Below, piece by piece: positions 50,788-64,000 of a DNA stretch of 64,000 nucleotides (position 1 is the first letter of the stretch; every line of letters begins with the position of its first letter). The stretch spans positions 94,900-158,899 of the forward strand of contig JAFRHL010000037.1 of assembly GCA_017433295.1 (NCBI GenBank), read 5' to 3'. This stretch comes from Eubacterium sp. (lineage in GTDB: Bacteria; Bacillota; Clostridia; Lachnospirales; Lachnospiraceae). Below the pieces are notes generated by a model. That model was not told the DNA's origin. It saw only the letters and a program-made list of their open reading frames with translations, and searched no databases. The position numbers and the translations under genes were made by a program.

Positions 50788-51654
50788 TCATGCCTTGCCT
50801 ACAGAACCGAATACTTCCATCTTTTCTTTTACTTTAGCCTTGATAGCCTCTGTGCCGGGAGCGAGGAGCTTACGGGGGTCAAATCCCTTGCCTGCCAGAT
50901 CCTTTCCTGCTTCGATATACTTACGTGTAGCTTCTGCAAAGACAAGCTGGCACTCTGTGTTAACATTGATCTTGGAAACACCAAGGCTGATGGCCTTCTT
51001 GATCATGTCATCCGGAATACCTGTGCCGCCGTGTAATACTAAAGGCATATCGCCTGTCTTCTGCTGGATGGCATCCAGTACGTCAAACTGTAAACCTGCC
51101 CAGTTGTCCGGATACTTGCCGTGGATGTTACCGATACCGGCTGCCAGCATTGTGATGCCGAGATCAGCGATGGTCTTGCACTCTTCCGGATCTGCACATT
51201 CGCCTAAACCTACAACACCGTCTTCTTCGCCGCCGATGGAGCCAACCTCTGCCTCGATGGAAATACCCTTCTCGTTGCAGATTGCTACAAGCTCTTTTGT
51301 CTTCTCAACATTCTCTTCGAATGGAAGAGAGGAGCCGTCGAACATGATACTGGAGAATCCGGCTTCGATACAGGCCTTGGCACCTTCATAGGAACCATGG
51401 TCAAGATGAAGAGCTACGGGAACTGTGATCTTCAGCTCTTCCAGCATACCGTTAACCATGCCTACAATTGTCTTATAACCTGCCATATACTTGCCGGCGC
51501 CTTCGGATACACCGAGCATTACAGGAGAGTTCAATTCCTGGGCTGTTAAAAGGATAGCCTTTGTCCACTCAAGGTTGTTGATATTAAATGCACCTACTGC
51601 ATAGTGTCCGGCTTTGGCCTTCTGTAACATTTCTTTTGCTGATACTAATGCCAT
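50788..51654 (-). CDS. fba: Class II fructose-1,6-bisphosphate aldolase
   Basis: A 288-residue zinc-dependent aldolase that splits fructose-1,6-bisphosphate into DHAP and glyceraldehyde-3-phosphate. Metal ligands in L-H-L-D-H-G (about 81-86), then M-F-D-G-S-S, E-A-E-V-G-S-I-G-G, H-G-K-Y, H-G-G-T-G-I-P and the DHAP-phosphate K-I-N-V-N-T-E. It is of the main glycolytic type and has its own leader. A second class II aldolase at 54707 is more divergent. Confidence 0.95.
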   Translation of the reverse strand: MALVSAKEMLQKAKAGHYAVGAFNINNLEWTKAILLTAQELNSPVMLGVSEGAGKYMAGYKTIVGMVNGMLEELKITVPVALHLDHGSYEGAKACIEAGFSSIMFDGSSLPFEENVEKTKELVAICNEKGISIEAEVGSIGGEEDGVVGLGECADPEECKTIADLGITMLAAGIGNIHGKYPDNWAGLQFDVLDAIQQKTGDMPLVLHGGTGIPDDMIKKAISLGVSKINVNTECQLVFAEATRKYIEAGKDLAGKGFDPRKLLAPGTEAIKAKVKEKMEVFGSVGKA

Positions 51655-54706: not shown

Positions 54707-55543
54707 CTATTTTGTCTCGAATACTTTATAGTAGTGCTTTAAGCAGTCATTCATACCCTTCTGTACTGCGGCCCGGAGAGTGATGTAATCTGCGGCGCCG
54801 GTTCCTTCAACCTGCTTTGCCTCCTTCATGGCGGCGAGATAGAGGTCTGTGTATACGTTAATCTTGCAGATTCCTTCTCTTGCGCAGCGGTTTAAGTTCT
54901 CGTCTCCTGAGCCGGATCCGCCGTGGAGAACCAGCGGAACATCTGTGGCCCGGCGGATGGAGGCGAGGGCCTCAAAGCTGATCTCCGGGATCGCTTTTGC
55001 CTTATATACGCCATGGGCTGTTCCGATGGATATAGCCAGGGAGTCACAGCCGGACTGTTTTGCAAACTCGGCGGCTTCTTCCGCAGTTGTATACAGGGTC
55101 TCGGTGTCGTTTGCGTTGAAATTGCTGGCCACATGGCCGATCTCGGCTTCCACAACAACACCCCGGGCATGGGCATATTCAACTACTTCCTTTGTGGTGG
55201 CCACATTCTCTTCAAAACTCTTCATGGAAGCATCGATCATAACGGAAGTAAATCCCAGGTCGATGGCCTTCTTGCAGGTCTCAACGCTCTCGCCATGGTC
55301 AAGATGAAGAACGATGGGCACGCTTGCTTCTTTTGCGTATTTTCTTCCCACCAGGGCAGCGTCTTCCAGGTTGATGTTGTCACCCAGATGGCTTTCTGCC
55401 AGGGCGATGATCAGGGGGAGTCCCATCTCTTCGGCGCACTGAACATGGTTCTTGATTCCTTCCATATCGAGAAAGTTGGCGGATGGAATGGCAAAATGTT
55501 CTTCCTGGGCTTTTTTAAACAGCATTTTTGTATTAACTAACAT
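54707..55543 (-). CDS. Class II aldolase, ketose-bisphosphate or tagatose type
   Basis: A 278-residue class II aldolase. Kept: H-L-D-H-G-E (zinc His), M-I-D-A-S-M, E-A-E-I-G-H, G-T-A-H-G-V-Y, H-G-G-S-G-S and K-I-N-V-Y-T-D. It is closer to GatY/KbaY-type (tagatose-bisphosphate, or other ketose-bisphosphate) aldolases than to the glycolytic fba at 50788. It is the last gene of the minus-strand operon TIM-like / YjbQ / aldolase, with 12 nt from YjbQ. Expected role: cleave a ketose phosphate from a PTS-imported polyol into DHAP or a related C3 fragment and an aldehyde. Confidence 0.85.
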   Translation of the reverse strand: MLVNTKMLFKKAQEEHFAIPSANFLDMEGIKNHVQCAEEMGLPLIIALAESHLGDNINLEDAALVGRKYAKEASVPIVLHLDHGESVETCKKAIDLGFTSVMIDASMKSFEENVATTKEVVEYAHARGVVVEAEIGHVASNFNANDTETLYTTAEEAAEFAKQSGCDSLAISIGTAHGVYKAKAIPEISFEALASIRRATDVPLVLHGGSGSGDENLNRCAREGICKINVYTDLYLAAMKEAKQVEGTGAADYITLRAAVQKGMNDCLKHYYKVFETK

Positions 55544-55555
55544 GGATGGTCCTCC

Positions 55556-56086
55556 TTATTCTCCGATCACTATGATCTTACATTTGCGGGCACGTCCCTT
55601 AGCCCTGTCAAAATCTACAAAATAAACATAACCTGTGGAGCCTACGCCAAGCTTTCCATCGTCAACCTCAAGGGTAGCGCTTGATCCGATGAGTGTGGAC
55701 TTAAGATGGGCGTCTGCATTAAGCAGGGCTCTCCTGTCGCCGCCCGGAAGATAGTCTGCCGCGTTGGGCCAGGACTCCACGTCTACAAAATGGGCTTCGC
55801 CCGGATACATATAGGGACCTTCAGGCGGCATCTCGGTCTGGTCGGGGAAGATCCCGGACAGGGCCTTGTTCAGGTCTATCTGAAGGAATTCGGTTCCGTC
55901 CTCGGTCACGTCATGGACATACTCCTCAAAGAATACGGAACAGGTGGTGTGGGGAGAGATGATGGTAACGATACCGTTTTTAATACCGCTGTTCGCGATG
56001 GCTTCCCTTACCTGGGGAGTTACATTGAAAAATGAAGGGGTTCCGCCGTGGGATGTTAATTTCACTGTTTCTTTATACACTGCCAT
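55556..56086 (-). CDS. yjbQ: YjbQ family protein (UPF0047)
   Basis: A 176-residue YjbQ/UPF0047 protein with the family signatures I-S-P-H-T-T-C-S-V-F, E-D-x-x-E-F..D-L, and L-P-G-G-D-R-R-A-L-L-N-A-D-A-H-L-K-S-T-L-I-G. E. coli YjbQ is reported to have a secondary thiamine-phosphate synthase activity, but its true role is not settled. The gene is only 2 nt behind the TIM-like gene and 12 nt before the aldolase. This position inside a sugar operon hints at a role in sugar-phosphate chemistry. Confidence 0.86.
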   Translation of the reverse strand: MAVYKETVKLTSHGGTPSFFNVTPQVREAIANSGIKNGIVTIISPHTTCSVFFEEYVHDVTEDGTEFLQIDLNKALSGIFPDQTEMPPEGPYMYPGEAHFVDVESWPNAADYLPGGDRRALLNADAHLKSTLIGSSATLEVDDGKLGVGSTGYVYFVDFDRAKGRARKCKIIVIGE

Positions 56087-56088
56087 GA

Positions 56089-56787
56089 TTATTTCTCCTC
56101 CTCTAATTCTTTCTGTGCTTTCACGATTGCCTCTGCCATCTCACGGACCCGCTCTGCCGGTGATGGTGCGTTCAGGATGCCTGAAGTGGCTCCTGTGCCG
56201 TCTGCTCCGAGTTTTACTACATTATAGCAGTCCTGGGCGGTGCTGACGCCGGAAGCGATCATAACCAGGACATCGGGGTTTATCTCATGAAGGGCCTTAA
56301 CGGTTTCTGTGGTATAGGAATCATCTGCCACCTGGCCGGTTCCGATCAGGTCGGTGGGCTCGGCCAGAACGATATCGGCACCCATGCATGCCACTGCCTT
56401 AGCCTCTACGGTGCTGTCCGCGCAGACAATGGTGATCATGTCAAGCTCTTTTGCTCTTTTAATGCAGGCATAAAGCTCGACAACCGTCTTCTGGTTCTCG
56501 GCATGATTGAGGAATACGGCGCCTGCACCGGCTTCTTTCAAAGACTCGGGTAAAACGGCTCCCATGCCTCTGCCCGGTACCAGAGAATCAAGAGACTGGG
56601 CACAAACGATAAGATTCTCAGTATTTTCTTTAATAAGTCTGATATCAGCGTAGGGACAGGTGAAATACATGGAAAGACCGGTATCCGCCGCAACCTTGTC
56701 CGCAGCCTTGGCCAGTTCCAGGCTCTTCTTTCCATATAAGTATGACTTGGGGTTAACGATTAAAAAAGGACTTTTTGCTTTTGCCAT
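56089..56787 (-). CDS. Triose-phosphate-isomerase-like enzyme
   Basis: A 232-residue TIM homologue, somewhat short and divergent from glycolytic TpiA. The catalytic Lys is in N-P-K-S-Y (usual N-x-K), His in L-N-H-A-E-N (usual G-H-S-E-R) and Glu in A-E-P-T-D-L-I-G-T-G (usual Y-E-P-V-W-A-I-G-T-G). All three residues are present, so it is likely an active isomerase. In erythritol and threitol pathways, TIM homologues isomerise L-erythrulose-phosphate. It is the first gene of the minus-strand operon and could act on a C3, C4 or similar ketose phosphate. Confidence 0.83.
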   Translation of the reverse strand: MAKAKSPFLIVNPKSYLYGKKSLELAKAADKVAADTGLSMYFTCPYADIRLIKENTENLIVCAQSLDSLVPGRGMGAVLPESLKEAGAGAVFLNHAENQKTVVELYACIKRAKELDMITIVCADSTVEAKAVACMGADIVLAEPTDLIGTGQVADDSYTTETVKALHEINPDVLVMIASGVSTAQDCYNVVKLGADGTGATSGILNAPSPAERVREMAEAIVKAQKELEEEK

Positions 56788-56869
56788 CTCTTTACTCCTC
56801 CCTCTTTAAGCAGTGGGCTTTAAATGGTTACATATGTGCCTTATAACTATTAAAGTGCTTCTTGCCTAC

Positions 56870-56898
56870 ATCATATACCCTATCATAGGGATTGTCAA
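56870..56898 (-). promoter_or_regulatory. Promoter and palindromic operator of the TIM-YjbQ-aldolase operon
   Basis: Minus strand: perfect TTGACA (56898-56893), a 17-bp spacer and TATGAT (56875-56870). The spacer holds the perfect 13-bp palindrome CCCTATCATAGGG (56878-56890). Confidence 0.75.
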
Positions 56899-56920
56899 GG
56901 ATTATTTTAACAAAAGTTTT

Positions 56921-56929
56921 GAACAAATG
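56921..56929 (-). promoter_or_regulatory. CATTTGTTC box upstream of the TIM operon
   Basis: CATTTGTTC on the minus strand (GAACAAATG on the plus strand), about 22 nt upstream of the -35. The same box in the same orientation lies upstream of the gutM promoter (60179-60187). Confidence 0.55.
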
Positions 56930-57018
56930 ATTATTTTGTAACAAGTAACTGGTTCTAATATCGGGAAAAAGATGATAGAATAGTGGTAGCCCCAATCGCA
57001 GCCGGTGTGTGGCCTGAG

Positions 57019-57052
57019 CCAATCGAAAGTGCCTCGGCGGTTTCGATTGATT
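57019..57052 (+). repeat. Dispersed TTTCGATTGAT element, copy 5
   Basis: CCAATCGAAAGTGCCTCGGC then GGTTTCGATTGATT; AATCGAAA pairs with TTTCGATT perfectly. It lies 32 nt upstream of the GDPD gene. Confidence 0.7.
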
Positions 57053-57083
57053 TCAAAAGGTATATATAATAAGGAGAGTTCTT

Positions 57084-57947
57084 TTGATTAATAAAGTGAA
57101 AAGCATTATCCCCGATGATTTGAAAAAAATACTCAGACAGGTGGAAAAGGAAATAAAATACCCATTTCGCAAAGCCAGGGCAGACTGGCTTAGAAACAGG
57201 GTCATTCTGACCTGGGACAGCAGCCGCTTTGTGGCCCATCGGGGCCTGTCGGCAGCGGCGCCGGAGAATACCATGAAAGCATTTGAACTGGCTGCCCGGG
57301 AGGGCTTCGCCGCAATAGAGACGGATATCCGGCGGACTAAGGATCATAAGCTTGTGCTCATGCATGATGAGAATCTGAAACGTATGTGCGGGGTGGACGC
57401 CCTGGTAAGAGATCTTACCTATGAGGAACTGTTAGAAATTCCGGTCAGAGGCAGCAGTACCGAAAGGATTCCTCTTCTTTCCCAATTCCTTCTATTATGC
57501 CGGGACCATGACAAGGTTCCCATGCTGGAATTAAAAGATAGCTGGAATGCCAGGGAAGCGCTGCCGGAGGATTATCTTATGGAGGTCATCAGACAGGTGG
57601 GACAGATCATGGGAAACAGGCCTGTTATCTATGTTTCCTTCAATATAAATACATTACTCGCCCTGCAGGCTCTCCTTTATAAGGAAGATATTGCCCATGT
57701 CAAACTCTTTCATCTGGTCCACCGGATGGACCCCTCAAGATTCTCCTGGTATAAGGACCACCGGATTAATCTGTCTTTTCAGGGAAAAAGGAATAAGCTT
57801 GCCGTCATCAGAAAGGCGAAGGAGGCCGGGCTTGAACTCGTAGTCTGGGTCGTTGATGATCCGGATCAGATCAGGCTGTATGTCAGGGAGAGGATCGACT
57901 GGATTGCTTCCAATGACAGGATAGAGGTGGAACAGGCACATTTGTGA
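57084..57947 (+). CDS. Glycerophosphodiester phosphodiesterase family protein
   Basis: A 287-residue GDPD-domain protein, starting with TTG at 57084 behind AAGGAGAG. About 45 basic residues precede the domain. Active-site residues: H-R-G (about 52-54), E-T-D in A-I-E-T-D-I-R (metal ligands) and H-D in L-M-H-D-E-N. It hydrolyses glycerophosphodiesters to glycerol-3-phosphate and an alcohol, or a related phosphodiester. It stands alone between the TIM operon and the regulator genes. Confidence 0.86.
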   Translation: MINKVKSIIPDDLKKILRQVEKEIKYPFRKARADWLRNRVILTWDSSRFVAHRGLSAAAPENTMKAFELAAREGFAAIETDIRRTKDHKLVLMHDENLKRMCGVDALVRDLTYEELLEIPVRGSSTERIPLLSQFLLLCRDHDKVPMLELKDSWNAREALPEDYLMEVIRQVGQIMGNRPVIYVSFNINTLLALQALLYKEDIAHVKLFHLVHRMDPSRFSWYKDHRINLSFQGKRNKLAVIRKAKEAGLELVVWVVDDPDQIRLYVRERIDWIASNDRIEVEQAHL

Positions 57948-58071
57948 TTAATGTTTGTATTGTTACCATGCATATGTTATTCTTTAATTCAGGATACATC
58001 GAATTATGCCGGACTATACCGGAGCTGCGCCGGCTGCCCGGTACTTTGACGGCTTAGGGGAGGATTGGATC

Positions 58072-59007
58072 ATGAGGGTGGCTTCAGAAGATGTGAATGT
58101 CAGAAAGATGACTCTGGCAGCGGAAATGTACTATATATATGATATGCCCCAGAAGGAGATCGCCAAACGGCTGGGGGTATCCAGGCCCTGGGTCTCCAAG
58201 CTGTTAAAGCGGGCCAGGGAGATGGATATTGTGCGTATTGAGATACAGTCTCCTCTGATGGGCAGCCCGGATATGGAAAAGAAACTGGAGGATACCTATC
58301 ACATCAATCATGTGTCTGTTATCCGGCCGGCGGCGGGCGGAGATTATACCAATATCAGTATGGCGGCGGCTAATTATCTGATTTCCCATGTAAAGCCAAA
58401 GGATACCATAGGCATAAGCTGGGGCATGTCCATCGCCAGGATGATCGACCATGTGGTGGATATGCAGCTTCCCGATGTAACAGTTGTTCCCATTGTGGGC
58501 GGGGCCGGTTCAGATATCGAATGCCTCAGTAATGTCAATGCCAACAGGCTGTCCAATCTGTTGGGAAGCAAATGCCGTCTGCTCCATGCCAATGCCTATT
58601 GTGCGGACCGGAATGAATATCAGGCTGTCATATCCGGTCAGATGACAAAAGAGATCATTGATCAGGGCGAGCATGCGGATATTGCTCTGGTGGGGATCGG
58701 GGCCATGAAACCATCCCGGATACTGGATTATGATTACCTTACCCCTGAGGACCGGGATCACATCATAGACAGCGGGGTGGTGGGTGATATTGCCTTCCGA
58801 TTTGTGGAAGAGAACGGACAAGTTGCGGATATTGACTTTAATAAACGTGTTGTGGCCTGCGATCTGGCTGCCATAAGGAAGAATGCCAGGGAGGTGATTG
58901 CCATAGCCTACGGCAGGGAGAAGGCTGAGATCATCAGGGCGGTGCTTAAGGGGGGGCTCCTTACTACTTTATTTACCGACTATGACACGGCACAGCAGCT
59001 GCTTTAG
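58072..59007 (+). CDS. SorC/DeoR-type sugar-binding transcriptional regulator 1
   Basis: A 311-residue regulator: N-terminal helix-turn-helix (about 20-50, M-P-Q-K-E-I-A-K-R-L-G-V-S-R-P-W-V-S-K-L-L) and a C-terminal sugar-phosphate-binding NagB-like domain (about 65-311, G-I-S-W-G-M-S, V-V-P-I-V-G-G-A-G-S, G-V-V-G-D-I). GGGGAGGA lies 7 nt before ATG 58072, so I prefer it to the in-frame ATG at 58006. A likely ligand is the phosphorylated substrate of the nearby pathway. A second homologue lies directly downstream. Confidence 0.86.
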   Translation: MRVASEDVNVRKMTLAAEMYYIYDMPQKEIAKRLGVSRPWVSKLLKRAREMDIVRIEIQSPLMGSPDMEKKLEDTYHINHVSVIRPAAGGDYTNISMAAANYLISHVKPKDTIGISWGMSIARMIDHVVDMQLPDVTVVPIVGGAGSDIECLSNVNANRLSNLLGSKCRLLHANAYCADRNEYQAVISGQMTKEIIDQGEHADIALVGIGAMKPSRILDYDYLTPEDRDHIIDSGVVGDIAFRFVEENGQVADIDFNKRVVACDLAAIRKNAREVIAIAYGREKAEIIRAVLKGGLLTTLFTDYDTAQQLL

Positions 59008-59033
59008 CCCTGCATTCCCAAAACTCCCCACGA

Positions 59034-59064
59034 GGCGGCCTCAATTGATTATTTCGGTTGATTT
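59034..59064 (+). repeat. Dispersed TTTCGATTGAT element, copy 6 (degenerate)
   Basis: GAGGCGGCCTCAATTGATTA followed by TTTCGGTTGAT: the core has one change (A to G). The TTGATT of this copy doubles as the likely -35 of the next gene. Confidence 0.5.
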
Positions 59065-59100
59065 TCCAGGAAAAAAGAGATAAAATATATACAAATGTTC
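59058..59100 (+). promoter_or_regulatory. Promoter and operator of regulator 2
   Basis: TTGATT (59058-59063), a 17-bp spacer, TAAAAT (59081-59086), then TATACAAATGTTC (59088-59100) right at the expected start of transcription. The same 13-nt sequence recurs at 60097-60109. This suggests autorepression. Confidence 0.65.
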
Positions 59101-59115
59101 TGGGGGATTGATGAA

Positions 59116-60090
59116 ATGAAAAAGATAGTGGATGATGACAGATTAATTTATAAGGTTTGCTGTCTCTATTATGAGGATGGTATGAACCAGAAGGAGATAG
59201 GGGATTATCTGGGAGTTTCCAGGTCTTCTGTACTCCGCATGCTGCAAAATGGCAGGGACCGGGGGATCGTTACCATTGAGCTGCACAATCCTGCTTCCTT
59301 TAACTACGGGGAGCTGGAGAAAAAGCTGGAGGTCAAATATGGTTTTAAAGATGTTGTGATCGTGGAGGAGAGTGTCCTGGATTCCAAGAGTGAGGCTGCC
59401 ACCTATATTTTCGGGCAGGCTGCGGACTATCTTTACAGTCTTCTGCGGGAAGGCTACCGCATCGGTGTTACCATGGGCCACACCCTGGATAATGTTCTCC
59501 AGACCAACAAAACATTCAAAAAGTTCGATAACATTTTATGTGTGCCCATTGTGGGTGGCATCAGCCAGGGTGCCACTGACGGCATGGATGTGCAGGGCAA
59601 TGAGATCGCCCGGAAATTCACTGACAAGTTCGGAGGAAAGTACATCCAGTTTCTGTCTCCGGCCATGTTTTCCGATAAGCGGATTCTCGACACTTTCCTT
59701 CAGGAAAAGGCAGTGAATTTTATTTTTGAGGAGTTTAAGAAAATTAATGTGGCTGTGGTTGGAATCGGTGTGCCAAAGGGGGAAGACCATACCCTCATCA
59801 AGGCAGGATATGCTACGTCGAAAGAACTTAAAGCGCTGGCCGCCCAGGGAGCAGTGGGAGATATCACATTGCAGTTTTTTGATGAGAACGGAAATACGGA
59901 ACGTTTTCATGAGTTTAACGACAGGGTGGCTGCCATTTCCATGGATGTTTTCCGGAAGATCCCCCTGCGGATCGGCATTGCCAGTGGTGAGAAGAAAGCG
60001 GAAGCAGTAAAAGGGGCCATTAAGGGAAAACTGATCAATATTCTGATCACCAATGCGGAATGTGCCAGAAAACTTCTTACTGATGATTAA
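59116..60090 (+). CDS. SorC-type sugar-binding transcriptional regulator 2
   Basis: A 324-residue paralogue of the regulator upstream. Helix-turn-helix about 18-50 (M-N-Q-K-E-I-G-D-Y-L-G-V-S-R-S-S-V-L-R-M-L) and the C-terminal SorC domain (V-P-I-V-G-G-I-S-Q-G, V-V-G-I-G-V-P-K-G, G-A-V-G-D-I-T-L-Q). The in-frame ATG at 59095 lies inside the operator, so ATG 59116 behind GGGGGA is the better start. Located just before the gutM-PTS operon and probably its main regulator. Confidence 0.86.
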   Translation: MKKIVDDDRLIYKVCCLYYEDGMNQKEIGDYLGVSRSSVLRMLQNGRDRGIVTIELHNPASFNYGELEKKLEVKYGFKDVVIVEESVLDSKSEAATYIFGQAADYLYSLLREGYRIGVTMGHTLDNVLQTNKTFKKFDNILCVPIVGGISQGATDGMDVQGNEIARKFTDKFGGKYIQFLSPAMFSDKRILDTFLQEKAVNFIFEEFKKINVAVVGIGVPKGEDHTLIKAGYATSKELKALAAQGAVGDITLQFFDENGNTERFHEFNDRVAAISMDVFRKIPLRIGIASGEKKAEAVKGAIKGKLINILITNAECARKLLTDD

Positions 60091-60096
60091 TTTAAT

Positions 60097-60187
60097 TATA
60101 CAAATGTTCTAATATAAAAGGTTAAATAATTAACTAAAACAAAAGTGCGCATTTGTATAAGAAACAATTCAATTTAAACATTTGTTC
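60097..60187. promoter_or_regulatory. Three SorC-type operator boxes upstream of gutM
   Basis: TATACAAATGTTC (60097-60109, identical to the box at regulator 2), GCATTTGTATA (60149-60159, inverted) and CATTTGTTC (60179-60187). Spacing of about 50 and 30 nt fits cooperative binding or looping. Confidence 0.7.
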
Positions 60188-60199
60188 AGAACATAATAC

Positions 60200-60228
60200 T
60201 TGATAATCAAAAGAGAATTCTGTATAAT
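60200..60228 (+). promoter_or_regulatory. Promoter of the gutM-PTS operon
   Basis: TTGATA (60200-60205), a 17-bp spacer and perfect TATAAT (60223-60228). The nearest CATTTGTTC box ends 12 nt upstream of the -35, a typical activator position. Confidence 0.8.
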
Positions 60229-60270
60229 TTATGTCAGATGAAAGATTATCTTAAGGGAGATTGAAAGAAG

Positions 60271-60732
60271 ATGAAGATCAGTGGACTTTCTATTGCATTT
60301 CTGATTCTCTTTGTGCTGATCGCCGTTCAGTCGGTCGGCGGATATTTACAGATTCAGAATTACAGGAAGGCCGTCAGACGAATGCACAAGCTGGGCAATG
60401 TGGGACTGGGGCAGAGAAGAGGACGGTTTTTAAACGGCCATGTTGCCATTATCGCATGTAACAGCGAGGGAATTATCACCGGAGCCGAGGTGATGGACGG
60501 AATCGGCGTCTGGGCAAGATTTCATCCGGTGGATACATTTCTTGATAAGAAGCTTGTGGGCAGCAGCGTTTTTGATTTTCTGGATATAACAGAAACCTTT
60601 GATAAGAAGAAGTTTAAACGTTACCGGGGATATGTACGGGCTCTGGAGGCTCTGGAAGTGAGACTGACGGACAGGGAGCTTACCAGGGAACAGGAAAAGT
60701 ACATGCAGGAGCGCGGTGGACGAAGGAAATAG
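60271..60732 (+). CDS. gutM: Glucitol operon activator-type protein GutM
   Basis: A 153-residue GutM family protein: N-terminal membrane segment (about 5-25, L-S-I-A-F-L-I-L-F-V-L-I-A-V), then a compact domain with G-Q-R-R-G-R-F-L-N-G-H-V-A-I-I-A and W-A-R-F-H-P-V-D-T-F. In E. coli GutM activates the glucitol operon; here it opens the PTS operon. GGGAGA precedes the ATG. The C-terminus is longer than a minimal GutM and rich in charged residues. Confidence 0.87.
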   Translation: MKISGLSIAFLILFVLIAVQSVGGYLQIQNYRKAVRRMHKLGNVGLGQRRGRFLNGHVAIIACNSEGIITGAEVMDGIGVWARFHPVDTFLDKKLVGSSVFDFLDITETFDKKKFKRYRGYVRALEALEVRLTDRELTREQEKYMQERGGRRK

Positions 60733-60847
60733 GCATCTGGTCCGGTTTTTCCCGGACTATAATATGAACTCTGGTATAAATTGTCTTTGACCGGGACAGA
60801 TAGGGCCCTGATGTCCGGTATGAAGACGTTTTATATAATAACTTATG

Positions 60848-60863
60848 GCAAATGACTATTTGC
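60848..60863. promoter_or_regulatory. Palindromic box ahead of srlA
   Basis: GCAAATGACTATTTGC, a perfect palindrome of two 6-nt arms and a 4-nt centre, followed by GCAAATGTTTTTAGGAGGG. The AAATG/CATTT half-site matches the boxes upstream of gutM; this one may bind the same regulator inside the operon. Confidence 0.5.
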
Positions 60864-60885
60864 AAATGTTTTTAGGAGGGTACTT

Positions 60886-61410
60886 ATGGAATTCATTTCA
60901 AAAGCAGCTGAGGCGTTTATCAGCTTGTTTACCGCTGGTGGCGAGACCTTTGCAGGATGGGTAACAGGAATCATCCCGCAGGTTGTCTGCCTTATGGTAT
61001 TCGTTAACTCAATCATCAAGCTTGTAGGAACAGACAGGGTTGAGAATTTCGCGAAGAAGATCACAAGGTACGCTGTTCTTCGTTACACACTTCTCCCGAT
61101 CCTGGCTGTATTCTTCCTGGCTAACCCGATGTGTTATACATTCGGACGTTTCGTAGATGAGAAGTACAAACCTGCCTACTATGATGCATGTGTAAGCTTT
61201 GTACATCCCATCACAGGCCTTTTCCCCCATGCCAATGCCGGAGAGCTTTTCGTATGGCTCGGTATTGCGGAGGGAGTTCAGAAAGCCGGCTTCTCAACAG
61301 GCGGTCTTGCTGTTCGTTACTTTATCGCCGGTGTTATCGTTATCCTGATCCGTGGTCTTCTGACAGAGAGAATCTATGCCATGATGACCCGTGGAAAAGC
61401 ATCTAAATAA
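60886..61410 (+). CDS. srlA: Glucitol/sorbitol PTS EIIC component
   Basis: A 174-residue membrane protein, EIIC2-type, of the glucitol PTS family with about four to five membrane helices (e.g. V-V-C-L-M-V-F-V-N-S-I-I-K-L-V-G). Family marks: G-W-V-T-G-I-I-P near the start and F-C-C-type conserved aromatic/Gly helix ends. GGAGGG lies 7 nt before the ATG. It is 15 nt upstream of srlE, and together they form the permease. Confidence 0.9.
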   Translation: MEFISKAAEAFISLFTAGGETFAGWVTGIIPQVVCLMVFVNSIIKLVGTDRVENFAKKITRYAVLRYTLLPILAVFFLANPMCYTFGRFVDEKYKPAYYDACVSFVHPITGLFPHANAGELFVWLGIAEGVQKAGFSTGGLAVRYFIAGVIVILIRGLLTERIYAMMTRGKASK

Positions 61411-61425
61411 TAGGAGGGCCCCGAT

Positions 61426-62430
61426 ATGTATAAGACAATTAAAATCAGTAGAGGAAATACTGGATGGGGTGGTCCGTTAGTTATCACTCCCACTGACAAA
61501 TGTCACACTGTATTAAGTGTTACAGGCGGCGGGATCGATCCCGTTTCTGCAAAGATCGCCGAGCTTTCCGGCGCAGAGGCAGTTGACGGATGGAAGACAT
61601 CCCTTCCGGATGATGAAGTTATGGTTGCCGTTGTTGACTGCGGTGGTACTGCAAGATGCGGCGTTTATCCCAAAAAAGGTATCTACACGGTTAACCTGAC
61701 ACCGGTTGGACAGTCCGGACCTCTTGCCCAGTTTATTACAGAGGATATCTATGTATCTGATGTTAAACCGGAGTGCATTGAGGTACTCGGTGAAGCCGGC
61801 GAGTATGTTGCTCCCGAGAAGGTGGCAGCTGCTCCCATATCCGACGGTCCTAAGACAAAAGCTCAGGCCAAGCAGGAGATTGCTGCAGCCAATGAGGGCA
61901 AGAGCGAGAACATTGTTACAAAGATCGGTAAAGGTGTTGGTTATGTGGTAGGCCAGTTCTTCCAGGCAGGTCGTGATACCATCGATATGGTTATCAAGAA
62001 CATCCTTCCCTTCATGGCATTTACTTCCACCATCCTTGGTATCATCAGTGCCAGCGGACTTGGAAATGTTATCGCCAACACGATCGCGCCGTTTTGTTCT
62101 ACCCTTCCGGGTATGTTATTGATCTGTCTGATCTGTTCCTTACCGTTCCTGTCACCGATTCTCGGACCTGGTGCCGTTATCGCTCAGGTAGTAGGAACAC
62201 TTCTTGGCGCCCAGTTCGCCACAGGCGCTATTCCGCCGCAGTATGCTCTTCCGGCTCTGTTCGCCATCGATGGACAGGTTGGTGGTGACTTCGTACCGGT
62301 TGGATTATCTCTGGGTGAAGCTGAGCCTGAGACCATCGAGTTTGGTGTGCCGGCCGTACTGTTCTCCAGGCTGATCACAGGCCCTGTATCCGTTCTTATT
62401 GCATTCGTATTAAGTATCGGACTTTTCTAA
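61426..62430 (+). CDS. srlE: Glucitol/sorbitol PTS EIIBC component
   Basis: A 334-residue protein: soluble EIIB (about 1-130) and a membrane EIIC1-part (about 180-334). The phospho-Cys lies in V-D-C-G-G-T-A-R-C-G-V-Y-P-K; the G-G-I-D-P and F-L-S-P-I-L-G-P-G-A-V-I-A segments are typical of SrlE. AGGAGGG before the ATG. The linker is Ala/Lys/Gln-rich. It imports and phosphorylates a hexitol or related polyol with srlA and srlB. Confidence 0.92.
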   Translation: MYKTIKISRGNTGWGGPLVITPTDKCHTVLSVTGGGIDPVSAKIAELSGAEAVDGWKTSLPDDEVMVAVVDCGGTARCGVYPKKGIYTVNLTPVGQSGPLAQFITEDIYVSDVKPECIEVLGEAGEYVAPEKVAAAPISDGPKTKAQAKQEIAAANEGKSENIVTKIGKGVGYVVGQFFQAGRDTIDMVIKNILPFMAFTSTILGIISASGLGNVIANTIAPFCSTLPGMLLICLICSLPFLSPILGPGAVIAQVVGTLLGAQFATGAIPPQYALPALFAIDGQVGGDFVPVGLSLGEAEPETIEFGVPAVLFSRLITGPVSVLIAFVLSIGLF

Positions 62431-62488
62431 ACTGGCCAGCGGAGCTTTAAAACAACTGTTTTTTCTATAATATGAGGTGGTAAGTACT

Positions 62489-62860
62489 ATGAAATACTCA
62501 TCAGAAATAACCGGATTTGGTCCGGAGGCATTTGAGTTTCTTGAACCGGAGCTTGCCCTGAATTTTGTCATCATTTTTAATGAAGATGCACCGCCGGAGC
62601 TGGCTGAGCTTGCGATCCTTCATAAAAAAGAAAAGCTGATTGCACCTCCTGCCAAGGGCGACATCCTGATGGTAGGAGAGAATGTTTATACTATTACTGC
62701 AGTCGGTGATGAAGTACAACATACTCTTGCCGAGCTAGGCCATTGTACTCTGGCCTTCGGTGGCGGTGAGGAAGCATTCCGTCCGGGTTGCATCATGCTG
62801 GAAGGCCCCATGCTTTCAAAAGACTCCGTTAAGATCGGAGACAGAATAGAAATTTATTAA
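62489..62860 (+). CDS. srlB: Glucitol/sorbitol PTS EIIA component
   Basis: A 123-residue EIIA of the glucitol family; the phospho-His is in A-E-L-G-H-C-T-L (about residue 83). The start is ATG 62489 behind GAGGTGG; GTG 62477 lies in the same frame. It takes phosphate from HPr and passes it to srlE. It completes the set srlA-srlE-srlB. Confidence 0.91.
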   Translation: MKYSSEITGFGPEAFEFLEPELALNFVIIFNEDAPPELAELAILHKKEKLIAPPAKGDILMVGENVYTITAVGDEVQHTLAELGHCTLAFGGGEEAFRPGCIMLEGPMLSKDSVKIGDRIEIY

Positions 62861-62939
62861 ACAGTTTACCATCTGCCCTGCAGATATCGCTGACCCGGAT
62901 TTTGCCGGCGATACCTGCACAGGGAGCAGGTTGGATTTG

Positions 62940-62983
62940 CAGCCTCTCGGAAACATTTTCATGTACGGGTCCCCGGGAGGCTG
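62940..62983 (+). other. Intercistronic hairpin between srlB and the oxidoreductase gene
   Basis: CAGCCTCTCGG / CCGGGAGGCTG form a stem with a 20-nt loop, preceded by a second stem (GCAGATATCG / CGATACCTGC, about 62879-62917). There is no T-run. They may stabilise or process the mRNA rather than terminate. Confidence 0.5.
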
Positions 62984-63014
62984 ATTTAACATATCATTCA
63001 GGGAGGATATCATT

Positions 63015-64000
63015 ATGCTTAACATGAACTGGAAATTGGAACAGAGAGAAAAGGAAGGCAAGATCATTAAGACAGGTATCGTCGGCGCAGGCCAGATGGG
63101 ACGCGGCATGGTTACCCAGATGGTACTGATGAAGGGTATGACACCTGCCATCGTTTCCGATATCAACATTGACAATGCTGTACAGGCCTTCAAGTATGCA
63201 GGGGTTGCCGACGAGGATATCGTTGTTGCAAAAACTCTTGAAGAGGCAAACACAGGCATCGCAGCCGGCAAGTATGTTGCATGTGAGAGCGCTGATTTCA
63301 TCTCCCAGGCAGAGGGCGTTGAGTGTGCCATCGACTGCACAGGTGTTCCGGATGTGGGAGCTAAGGTTGCCACAGACGCCATGAAGAACGGCAAGCATGT
63401 GGTAATGCTCAATGTTGAGACCGACGTGGTGATCGGACCTTACCTTGACAAGTTCGCAAAAGACCACGGCGTGATCTACACAGGCTCCGCAGGAGACGAG
63501 CCCGGCGCCGTTATGGAGCTCTACTGCTTCGCCAAGGCCATGGGCCTCAACGTGGAAGTAATGGGCAAGGGCAAGAACAACAAGCTTGACTATGACTGCA
63601 ATCCCGACACAGTACTTGAGGAGGCAACACGCCGTAAGATGAGCCCCAGAATGCTCTGCGCCTTCAAGGACGGCACAAAGACCATGGTAGAGATGACCGC
63701 CATGTGCAACTATACAGGCCTGGTACCGGATGTGATCGGCGGACACGGCCCGGCAACCGCTCCCGGAACAGAGGGCGTTAAGGAGTTAAACGAGATCTTC
63801 AAACTGAAAAAAGACGGCGGCATCCTCAATAAGCACGGCGTAGTAGAGTATGTAAACGGGATCGCCCCCGGCGTATTCGTGACCGTTTCCACCGACAACG
63901 AAGAGATCGCCTACCAGCTGCAGTACCACAGCATGGGACCCGGACCATTATGGACCCTCTACCGTCCCTATCACCTGTGCAACCTTGAGACTCCCCTTAC
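63015..64000 (+). CDS. Rossmann NAD(P)-dependent oxidoreductase, homoserine-dehydrogenase-like (partial)
   Basis: Starts at ATG 63015 behind GGGAGG and stays open to the window end (about 328 residues seen). N-terminal Rossmann motif G-I-V-G-A-G-Q-M-G-R-G (about 22-32); V-V-M-L-N-V-E-T-D-V-V-I-G and G-S-A-G-D-E-P-G-A segments resemble the COG4091-type predicted homoserine dehydrogenases with a C-terminal SAF domain, which would lie near or beyond the edge. It replaces the short-chain sorbitol-6-phosphate dehydrogenase expected after srlB. I infer it oxidises the polyol phosphate from the PTS. C-ending codons dominate, suggesting strong expression. Confidence 0.75.
   Translation, partial: MLNMNWKLEQREKEGKIIKTGIVGAGQMGRGMVTQMVLMKGMTPAIVSDINIDNAVQAFKYAGVADEDIVVAKTLEEANTGIAAGKYVACESADFISQAEGVECAIDCTGVPDVGAKVATDAMKNGKHVVMLNVETDVVIGPYLDKFAKDHGVIYTGSAGDEPGAVMELYCFAKAMGLNVEVMGKGKNNKLDYDCNPDTVLEEATRRKMSPRMLCAFKDGTKTMVEMTAMCNYTGLVPDVIGGHGPATAPGTEGVKELNEIFKLKKDGGILNKHGVVEYVNGIAPGVFVTVSTDNEEIAYQLQYHSMGPGPLWTLYRPYHLCNLETPL

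Follow-up and report, generated by a model that had tools for sequence, protein, structure and literature searches.

Two linked operons in a Lachnospiraceae Eubacterium as a candidate pathway for 2-C-methyl-D-erythritol catabolism

Methylerythritol is a branched C5 sugar alcohol that arises in plants as a by-product of isoprenoid synthesis. We analysed a 64,000-nucleotide stretch of Eubacterium sp. DNA (the window), which forms the end of contig C25 in the host genome G000 (2.9 Mb, 56 contigs), and lean towards reading two operons at its end as one regulon for the catabolism of 2-C-methyl-D-erythritol (ME) via 2-C-methyl-D-erythritol 4-phosphate (MEP) and 1-deoxy-D-xylulose 5-phosphate (DXP). 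One operon encodes GutM, a glucitol-type phosphotransferase system (PTS) and an oxidoreductase, DRL. The other encodes a TIM-like isomerase, a YjbQ protein and a class II aldolase. We infer the substrate, the direction and every reaction of this pathway from the genes and their families, their co-occurrence in other genomes, conserved residues, a shared promoter motif and missing genes, as reported below. DRL belongs to a reductoisomerase family, and this, taken with the partner genes and the lack of detectable DXS and DXR-I in the host and its kin, suggests 2-C-methylerythritol.

An initial annotation of the region had sketched a route in which a polyol is imported as its phosphate, oxidised, isomerised and cut by an aldolase, and this outline is supported. 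The C4–C6 polyol that it put forward, taken here as a linear one, is not supported as the substrate and is replaced, with moderate confidence, by 2-C-methylerythritol, as enzymes of the DRL family catalyse a reductoisomerisation whose polyol phosphate, MEP, is branched and has five carbons. The view that the two operons make up one pathway is well supported, its basis being the co-occurrence of the genes in other genomes and a common predicted operator. Overall, the earlier interpretation is partly supported.

In the proposed pathway, the PTS would import ME and phosphorylate it to MEP, and DRL, acting in the oxidative direction, would convert MEP and NAD(P)+ to DXP. YjbQ and the TIM-like isomerase would then shift the DXP carbonyl from C2 through C3 to C4, yielding a 5-deoxypentulose 1-phosphate, which the class II aldolase would cleave to dihydroxyacetone phosphate (DHAP) and acetaldehyde. 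The assignment of the two isomerisations is the least sure part of the scheme. Compared by eye, the TIM-like protein has NxK, H and E positions which we take to resemble those of TIM, and it would therefore suit the shift next to the phosphate carbon, with YjbQ performing the other. The DHAP shunt for 5-deoxyribose also ends with the cleavage of a 5-deoxypentulose 1-phosphate to DHAP and acetaldehyde; it thus shares the proposed end step, but its isomerase and aldolase come from different families and it begins with a different compound. A SorC regulator would sense a sugar phosphate of the pathway and control both operons via the common operator. In some other bacteria, a complex resembling pyruvate or acetoin dehydrogenase would replace the isomerases and the aldolase, splitting DXP into acetyl-CoA and glyceraldehyde 3-phosphate. 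The chemistry of acetoin- and pyruvate-type complexes fits such a cleavage, DXP having the acyloin structure CH3-CO-CHOH-R. In the host lineage, where neither DXS nor DXR-I was detected, imported ME may also supply isoprenoid synthesis.

The DRL oxidoreductase and the apparent loss of DXS and DXR-I

The oxidoreductase had been described as homoserine-dehydrogenase-like, an identity that is ruled out by its matches to the Pfam model DRL_cat (PF21135, 208 bits) and to PDB entries 3upy and 3upl; 3upy, the Brucella abortus DRL, was matched at an E-value of 1e-77. These matches place the protein in the DRL/DXR-II family. Identity to Brucella DXR-II extends over 142 of 315 aligned positions (45%), and E174, F178, K191, K193, T229, R320 and Y322 (Brucella numbering), which take part in substrate binding or the dimer, are all identical in the window DRL. 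These seven residues are named in a DXR-II survey (PMC3847144) and were looked up here. In the same survey, DXR-II is described as turning DXP into MEP, and 11 members of its clade complemented while four tested relatives outside it did not (PMC3847144). The window DRL shares the family of the Brucella enzyme (by Pfam, PDB and residues) and its proposed reaction; however, the known enzyme is described there as biosynthetic, from DXP to MEP, whereas that of the window sits in a PTS operon and is proposed to run from MEP to DXP.

The association of DRL with the PTS was seen across the phylum. In a sample of 398 genomes, drawn evenly, DRL_cat was present in 39 and EIIC-GUT in 30, with both in 26; the two genes lay 1.3–5.6 kb apart in 24 of these 26 (24/30 EIIC-GUT genomes). 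DXR-I was missing from 17 of the 39 DRL genomes compared to 11 of the 359 others (Fisher P 2e-12, a value that ignores relatedness), with G412, G455 and G495 scored as negative by their absence from the match list and not as listed negatives. DRL was beside the PTS in 12 of these 17 genomes. We read this most simply as PTS-linked DRL being able to substitute for DXR-I and hence to act on MEP and DXP.

The host genus was represented by 24 genomes (completeness 91% for G000, 97% for G005, 75% for G019, 83% for G021 and 70% for G023). A family search of the draft genomes found no DXR-I in G000, G005, G019, G021, G014, G011 and G023, and no strong DXS match in these seven or in G016, the latter retaining a DXR-I match. 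The only DXS matches in G000 scored just 47 and 21 bits. In G022, G017 and G007, dxr sits in the interval that separates cdsA from the gene after it (rseP by the usual order, named by eye). This interval measured 30–61 bases in G000, G005, G014 and G011; it leaves no room for dxr in G000 and G005 and supports the absence of DXR-I from these two. It was 466 bases long in G021, and the G019 contig stops short of this position. IspG was found in six of the seven genomes without DXR-I, and IspH-S1 in G000, while the search gave no IspG match in G016 and G023. The window-type PTS occurred in G000, G005, G019, G014 and G011 and elsewhere in the genus only in G007, that is, in 5/7 genomes without DXS and DXR-I against 1/17 others (Fisher P 0.003). 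G003, G006 and G012 were classed as sorbitol type by hidden Markov model score only, and no DRL_cat match was found in them.

Gene neighbourhoods of DRL and the predicted operator

DRL loci were obtained by scanning named genomes with an alignment of six DRL proteins, and the best 80 of 557 relatives were taken. This set leans to window-like proteins, many of its loci end early at contig ends, and two of them (L031, L032) are G019 and G005 repeated. Loci were counted by tblastn, with separate queries for dehydrogenase E1 and transketolase; open reading frame (ORF) calls missed some DRL genes beneath longer antisense ORFs. At least two glucitol-PTS genes lay within 10 kb of DRL at 50 of the 80 loci. 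At 18 loci, at least two of the aldolase, TIM-like and YjbQ genes lay within the same distance (all three at 17), and a PTS gene was present at every one of the 18. The initial annotation had suggested looking for the six genes together in other genomes, and their co-occurrence is borne out by these 18 loci and by the gene order in G019. In Eubacterium callanderi (L092), the aldolase, TIM-like, YjbQ, GutM, EIIC, EIIBC, EIIA and DRL genes are consecutive on one strand, as are DRL, aldolase, TIM-like and YjbQ in Clostridium psychrophilum (L071). The gene order of the window is repeated in G019 through DRL, and in G014 and G011 through EIIBC; the G014 contig stops inside EIIBC and that of G011 just past it, so that any DRL there would be off the contig. 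Several of the closest loci derive from herbivore-gut metagenomes, and an ORF between DRL and the aldolase gene in L069 is an IS4 transposase.

A different downstream module, the E1-alpha/E1-beta pair of a thiamine-dependent dehydrogenase complex, was found within 6 kb after DRL at 11 of the 80 loci, accompanied by E2 at 10 and by a PTS gene at eight. No locus carried both modules (chance P 0.05 for the 80 loci, or 0.14 when only the 38 loci with long flanks are counted). The dehydrogenase module was also seen in other lineages, among 10 plasmid regions chosen by hand; the plasmid collection has 111 records matching DRL, and the choice was made among 40 of these. E1/E2 genes lay near DRL in six of the 10 regions. 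E1-alpha, E1-beta and E2 directly follow DRL in five of them: the regions of Sinorhizobium americanum, S. meliloti Rm41 and Aminobacter also contain an ABC transporter, and those of Terrarubrum and Pseudoroseomonas a glucitol PTS. The Priestia region has E1-beta, E2 and E3 ∼5 kb upstream of DRL, SorC and MFS genes in between and an FGGY kinase gene downstream. Listeria monocytogenes (a chromosome-sized record) showed SorC, DRL, a GutM-like ORF (named by eye), EIIC, EIIBC and EIIA, and Ligilactobacillus salivarius showed DRL, PTS, SorC, fructose-6-phosphate aldolase and transketolase. DRL adjoins only an ABC transporter in Phyllobacterium, and a 34% identical relative lies inside a glycan cluster in Deinococcus. 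The E2 proteins of Terrarubrum and Pseudoroseomonas (L172, L176) scored above the cut-off of the acetoin-dehydrogenase E2 model; those of S. americanum (L173) and Thermovorax (L082) were of the pyruvate type and fell below it. Two of the four E1-alpha proteins tested passed the pyruvate-dehydrogenase ‘y’ model. Known pyruvate and acetoin dehydrogenase complexes are the counterpart of the downstream module at these DRL loci, with none in the window operons, and the proposed substrate is DXP rather than pyruvate or acetoin. E. coli aceE mutants, altered in pyruvate-dehydrogenase E1, make DXP, so an E1 of this type is able to act on the bond concerned (PMC3424233).

A DRL tree of 92 rows was built, with the G019 copy in place of that of the window, four of 96 short rows dropped and long branches flagged; it comprised our own rows without the reference sequences of the survey, and the midpoint root serves for drawing only. 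On this tree the window DRL may belong either to the DXR-II clade or to DLO1/DLO2. DRLs linked to E1 were spread over several phyla, while all 18 aldolase-linked DRLs were from Bacillota. The aldolase module may therefore be younger than the dehydrogenase module.

Other gene settings were also observed. Downstream of DRL, L023, L064, L066 and L077 have a small cupin protein, either by itself or joined to a HAD domain; at the set thresholds the tally was 3/80 loci for cupin and 0/80 for HAD, and neither was given a role in the pathway. Another setting of DRL (L027, L025, L106, L107, L109) comprises a SIS protein, an MDR alcohol dehydrogenase, DRL and an FGGY kinase, mostly with a FucI-like isomerase and in some cases with ribose-type ABC transporter genes, and probably represents a related branched-sugar pathway. 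On a 109-kb Clostridioides difficile plasmid (L168, NZ_CP033217.1), SorC, E1-alpha, E1-beta, E2 and E3 genes lie near other PTS genes; the E1-alpha is 71% identical to the DRL-linked E1-alpha of L076, and there was no DRL in the 21 kb read.

The promoters of both operons carry the common motif CATTTGTTCNNAAC. The predicted operators are CATTTGTTCAAAAC before the TIM-YjbQ-aldolase operon, where a CTTGACA −35-like box begins 30 nt past the site start, and CATTTGTTCAGAAC before the gutM-PTS-DRL operon, where a CTTGA box begins 20 nt past the site start. Allowing at most one mismatch, these two promoter sites were the only matches in the 64 kb. Shuffled sequences gave a mean of 0.36 matches, and 8 of 100 had at least two; as the pattern was derived from the two sites themselves, the count alone is weak. 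Conservation across loci is the stronger point, and it was inspected at 17 loci, two genomes being represented by two loci each. In G019, a site with no more than one mismatch precedes TIM, GutM and DRL; in G014 such sites precede TIM and GutM, and in G011 TIM. They were likewise present before GutM in L038 and L043 and before EIIA-DRL in L036 and L037, and the operator also precedes the EIIA-DRL pair on contig C18 of the host. The CTTG(A) box followed 20 nt after the site start; for TIM the distance was 30–31 nt, or 41 nt in G014. Sites with one mismatch that lack this placement were seen in L007, L036 and L039, and among the 17 loci the operator was not found in G005, G007, L034, L035, L049 and L095. 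The predicted operator is likely bound by SorC 2, a relative of which lies near DRL at 49 of the 80 loci. A counterpart of SorC 1, with 72–79% identity, occupies the same position in G005, G019, G014 and G011.

Locus layout and the contig end

The features of the locus are listed in Table 1. All of the genes named in the initial annotation, on both strands around the two SorC regulators, were found with the expected families. The pathway aldolase scored above the cut-off for the general subfamily TIGR00167 and below every equivalog cut-off; its closest PDB match was YdjI, and it shares 33% identity with a second FBA-type aldolase in the window (50788–51654). The window YjbQ is 60–80% identical to eight pathway relatives. 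A GDPD-like ORF between the TIM-like gene and SorC 1 looks like an insertion. It was rejected as a pathway member and is regarded as a bystander, because G014 and G011 have none at that spot.

Table 1. Features of the two operons, predicted operators and further DRL pieces in the host genome
Feature	Position	Strand	Basis or remark
Class II (FBA-type) aldolase	54707–55543	-	PF01116; pathway paralogue
YjbQ/UPF0047 protein, divergent, 176 aa	55556–56086	-	PF01894, TIGR00149
TIM-like isomerase, archaeal-type	56089–56787	-	PRK04302 172 bits; PDB 1hg3
Predicted operator CATTTGTTCAAAAC	56916–56929	-	before TIM-YjbQ-aldolase operon
GDPD-like ORF	57084–57947	+	named by eye
SorC-family regulator 1	58006–59007	+	PF04198
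SorC-family regulator 2	59095–60090	+	PF04198
Predicted operator CATTTGTTCAGAAC	60179–60192	+	before gutM-PTS-DRL operon
GutM-like protein	60271–60732	+	PF06923
PTS EIIC, glucitol type	60886–61410	+	PF03608 262 bits
PTS EIIBC, glucitol type	61426–62430	+	PF03612 + PF07663
PTS EIIA, glucitol type	62477–62860	+	PF03829
DRL (DXR-II family) oxidoreductase	63015–64000, truncated	+	PF21135, PDB 3upy, residues
DRL piece on C18	L007:2–998		
DRL piece on C13	L008:13855–14328		
DRL piece on C3	L009:9334–9807		

The DRL gene is truncated because the contig stops at the window end. Its final 141 bases recur where contigs C13 and C3 end, and a second DRL copy in G000, located on C18 behind a separate EIIA gene, comprises the first 180 codons with 99% protein identity. 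The break in the assembly apparently falls within a gene present in two copies, and both DRL copies are affected. Following DRL, C13 carries a convergent Fic-like gene and C3 a metallophosphatase-like gene, both named by eye from ORFs. No srlD was found among the ten window proteins searched, nor by eye past DRL on C13 or C3, the rest of the genome lying outside this search; the observation in the initial annotation that the usual srlD is not seen thus holds past the window end on both possible continuations. A sorbitol operon with its srlD beyond the window end, the outcome which that annotation considered fatal to its proposal, was rejected, as neither continuation has srlD. The window shares EIIC, EIIBC, EIIA and GutM with the sorbitol (srl/gut) PTS operon, but it differs in having no SrlD and in having SorC regulators, those of the sorbitol operons in the genus being PRD-type by eye. 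An SrlD-type gene (NF004817) was present in the two sorbitol-type operons examined in the same genus, and the window EIIC shares only 44–47% identity with five sorbitol-type EIIC proteins of the genus. Elsewhere in the host (L166, G000:C23:92000-100000), HAD-phosphatase-, RpiB-, TalC- and split-transketolase-like ORFs (named by eye) share a cluster with an iron-dehydrogenase-like ORF and an FGGY kinase, which is probably a pentose or polyol operon.

Competing readings and significance

Several points weigh against ME catabolism. No observation made here is specific to ME alone, we know of no isomerase activity for YjbQ, whose only label is the family name ‘secondary thiamine-phosphate synthase’, and no acetaldehyde-using enzyme was recognised within the module. 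G021 and G023 lack DXS and DXR-I matches and no window-type PTS was detected in them (G021 has the sorbitol type only, G023 none); as the genus genomes are kin, the losses of DXS and DXR-I may be one event. G005 has the PTS and DRL, with no aldolase, TIM-like or YjbQ gene within the 20 kb read around them. The mutual exclusion of the two downstream modules is statistically weak. The dehydrogenase complexes look mostly pyruvate-type, with only two of four E2 proteins tested passing the acetoin model, and the nearest solved E1-alpha structure is a pyruvate dehydrogenase. Finally, of the functional-divergence positions in Table 2 of the DXR-II survey, 24/39 alignable ones are identical to Brucella DXR-II, the table having 56 positions, of which 17 are gaps or unalignable in the truncated window DRL. 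A smaller hand-picked set of 21 positions, 20 of them identical, is superseded by this full check. As only 24/39 match, membership of the DXR-II clade is left unsettled by the residues; this weakens the residue argument, with family membership and our overall weighting staying as before.

The 25/80 loci that have PTS and DRL with neither downstream module also count against ME catabolism, and they favour a hydroxymethyl-branched polyol such as apiitol or hamamelitol. By analogy, DRL would carry out its reverse reductoisomerisation on the phosphate of this polyol, and the product, xylulose 5-phosphate (or fructose 6-phosphate), would pass straight into central metabolism. Transketolase or TalC lies by DRL in L064, L077, L045, L079 and L094, and both do in L171; these neighbours fit a xylulose 5-phosphate product better, and therefore such a polyol. 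Xylulose 5-phosphate, however, would need neither the dehydrogenase complex (11/80 loci; 6/10 plasmid regions) nor the aldolase module (18/80), and the DXR-II enzymes tested act on the methyl compound (PMC3847144). We regard this substrate as unlikely. A linear tetritol or pentitol, with DRL as a plain polyol-phosphate dehydrogenase and the TIM-like protein as a tetrulose-phosphate isomerase, appears rather unlikely. The uptake and control of linear polyols typically involve a glucitol-type PTS and SorC regulators, erythritol and threitol catabolism also employs a TIM-family isomerase on a ketose phosphate, and the 24/39 result would suit this substrate. On the other hand, no RpiB, polyol kinase or tetritol dehydrogenase was found among the ten window proteins searched, the substrate-binding residues of DXR-II are kept in DRL, DRL is associated with missing DXR-I across the phylum, and the acyloin-type dehydrogenase complex would be left without a reason.

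Two further readings tie the locus to isoprenoid synthesis. The aldolase, TIM-like protein, YjbQ and DRL could run in reverse, starting from DHAP and acetaldehyde and making DXP and MEP, and so stand in for DXS and DXR-I in this lineage. Aldol reactions are reversible, and DXS and DXR-I were undetected while G000 keeps IspG and IspH; DXS was searched in genus genomes only. The operon is nevertheless tied to a PTS and SorC regulators, and G005, at 97% completeness, lacks both enzymes and yet has none of the three partner genes near its PTS-DRL; we consider a purely reverse pathway very unlikely. A combined version for the host lineage, in which this DXS-free route would reverse to catabolism when ME is present, is in our estimate quite unlikely. 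Least probable, and highly doubtful, is that DRL is a mere spare or replacement DXR with an incidental PTS neighbour. The 17/39 DRL genomes without DXR-I would agree with it, but DRL lies beside the PTS in 24/26 genomes having both, the host lineage is also without detectable DXS, and DRL-PTS operons occur in Ligilactobacillus, which uses mevalonate, and in Listeria. The published view is indeed of an alternative biosynthetic enzyme (PMC3847144), whereas Listeria is described as relying mainly on mevalonate (PMC13001223), with both pathways in L. monocytogenes (PMC11192765), and the DXR-II of Finegoldia was active although the survey found neither pathway there (PMC3847144).

ME and its glucosides are found in plants (PMC11192765), and no published description of ME catabolism was found among the open-licence papers listed. 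The DXR-II survey leaves unexplained the patchy spread of the enzyme, its coexistence with DXR-I and its activity in Finegoldia (PMC3847144). If ME catabolism is the true role, a catabolic origin of the enzyme next to a PTS or a kinase would resolve the three puzzles together and give this enzyme family a natural function, in which the start of the isoprenoid pathway is run backwards. It would add a catabolic pathway for a plant-made branched C5 polyol, assign a pathway to YjbQ and make the DRL-linked dehydrogenase complex a candidate for cleaving DXP. The DXS-free route from DHAP and acetaldehyde, if true, would give the MEP pathway a second natural point of entry. ME catabolism would further suggest that some gut bacteria rely on external methylerythritol for their isoprenoids.

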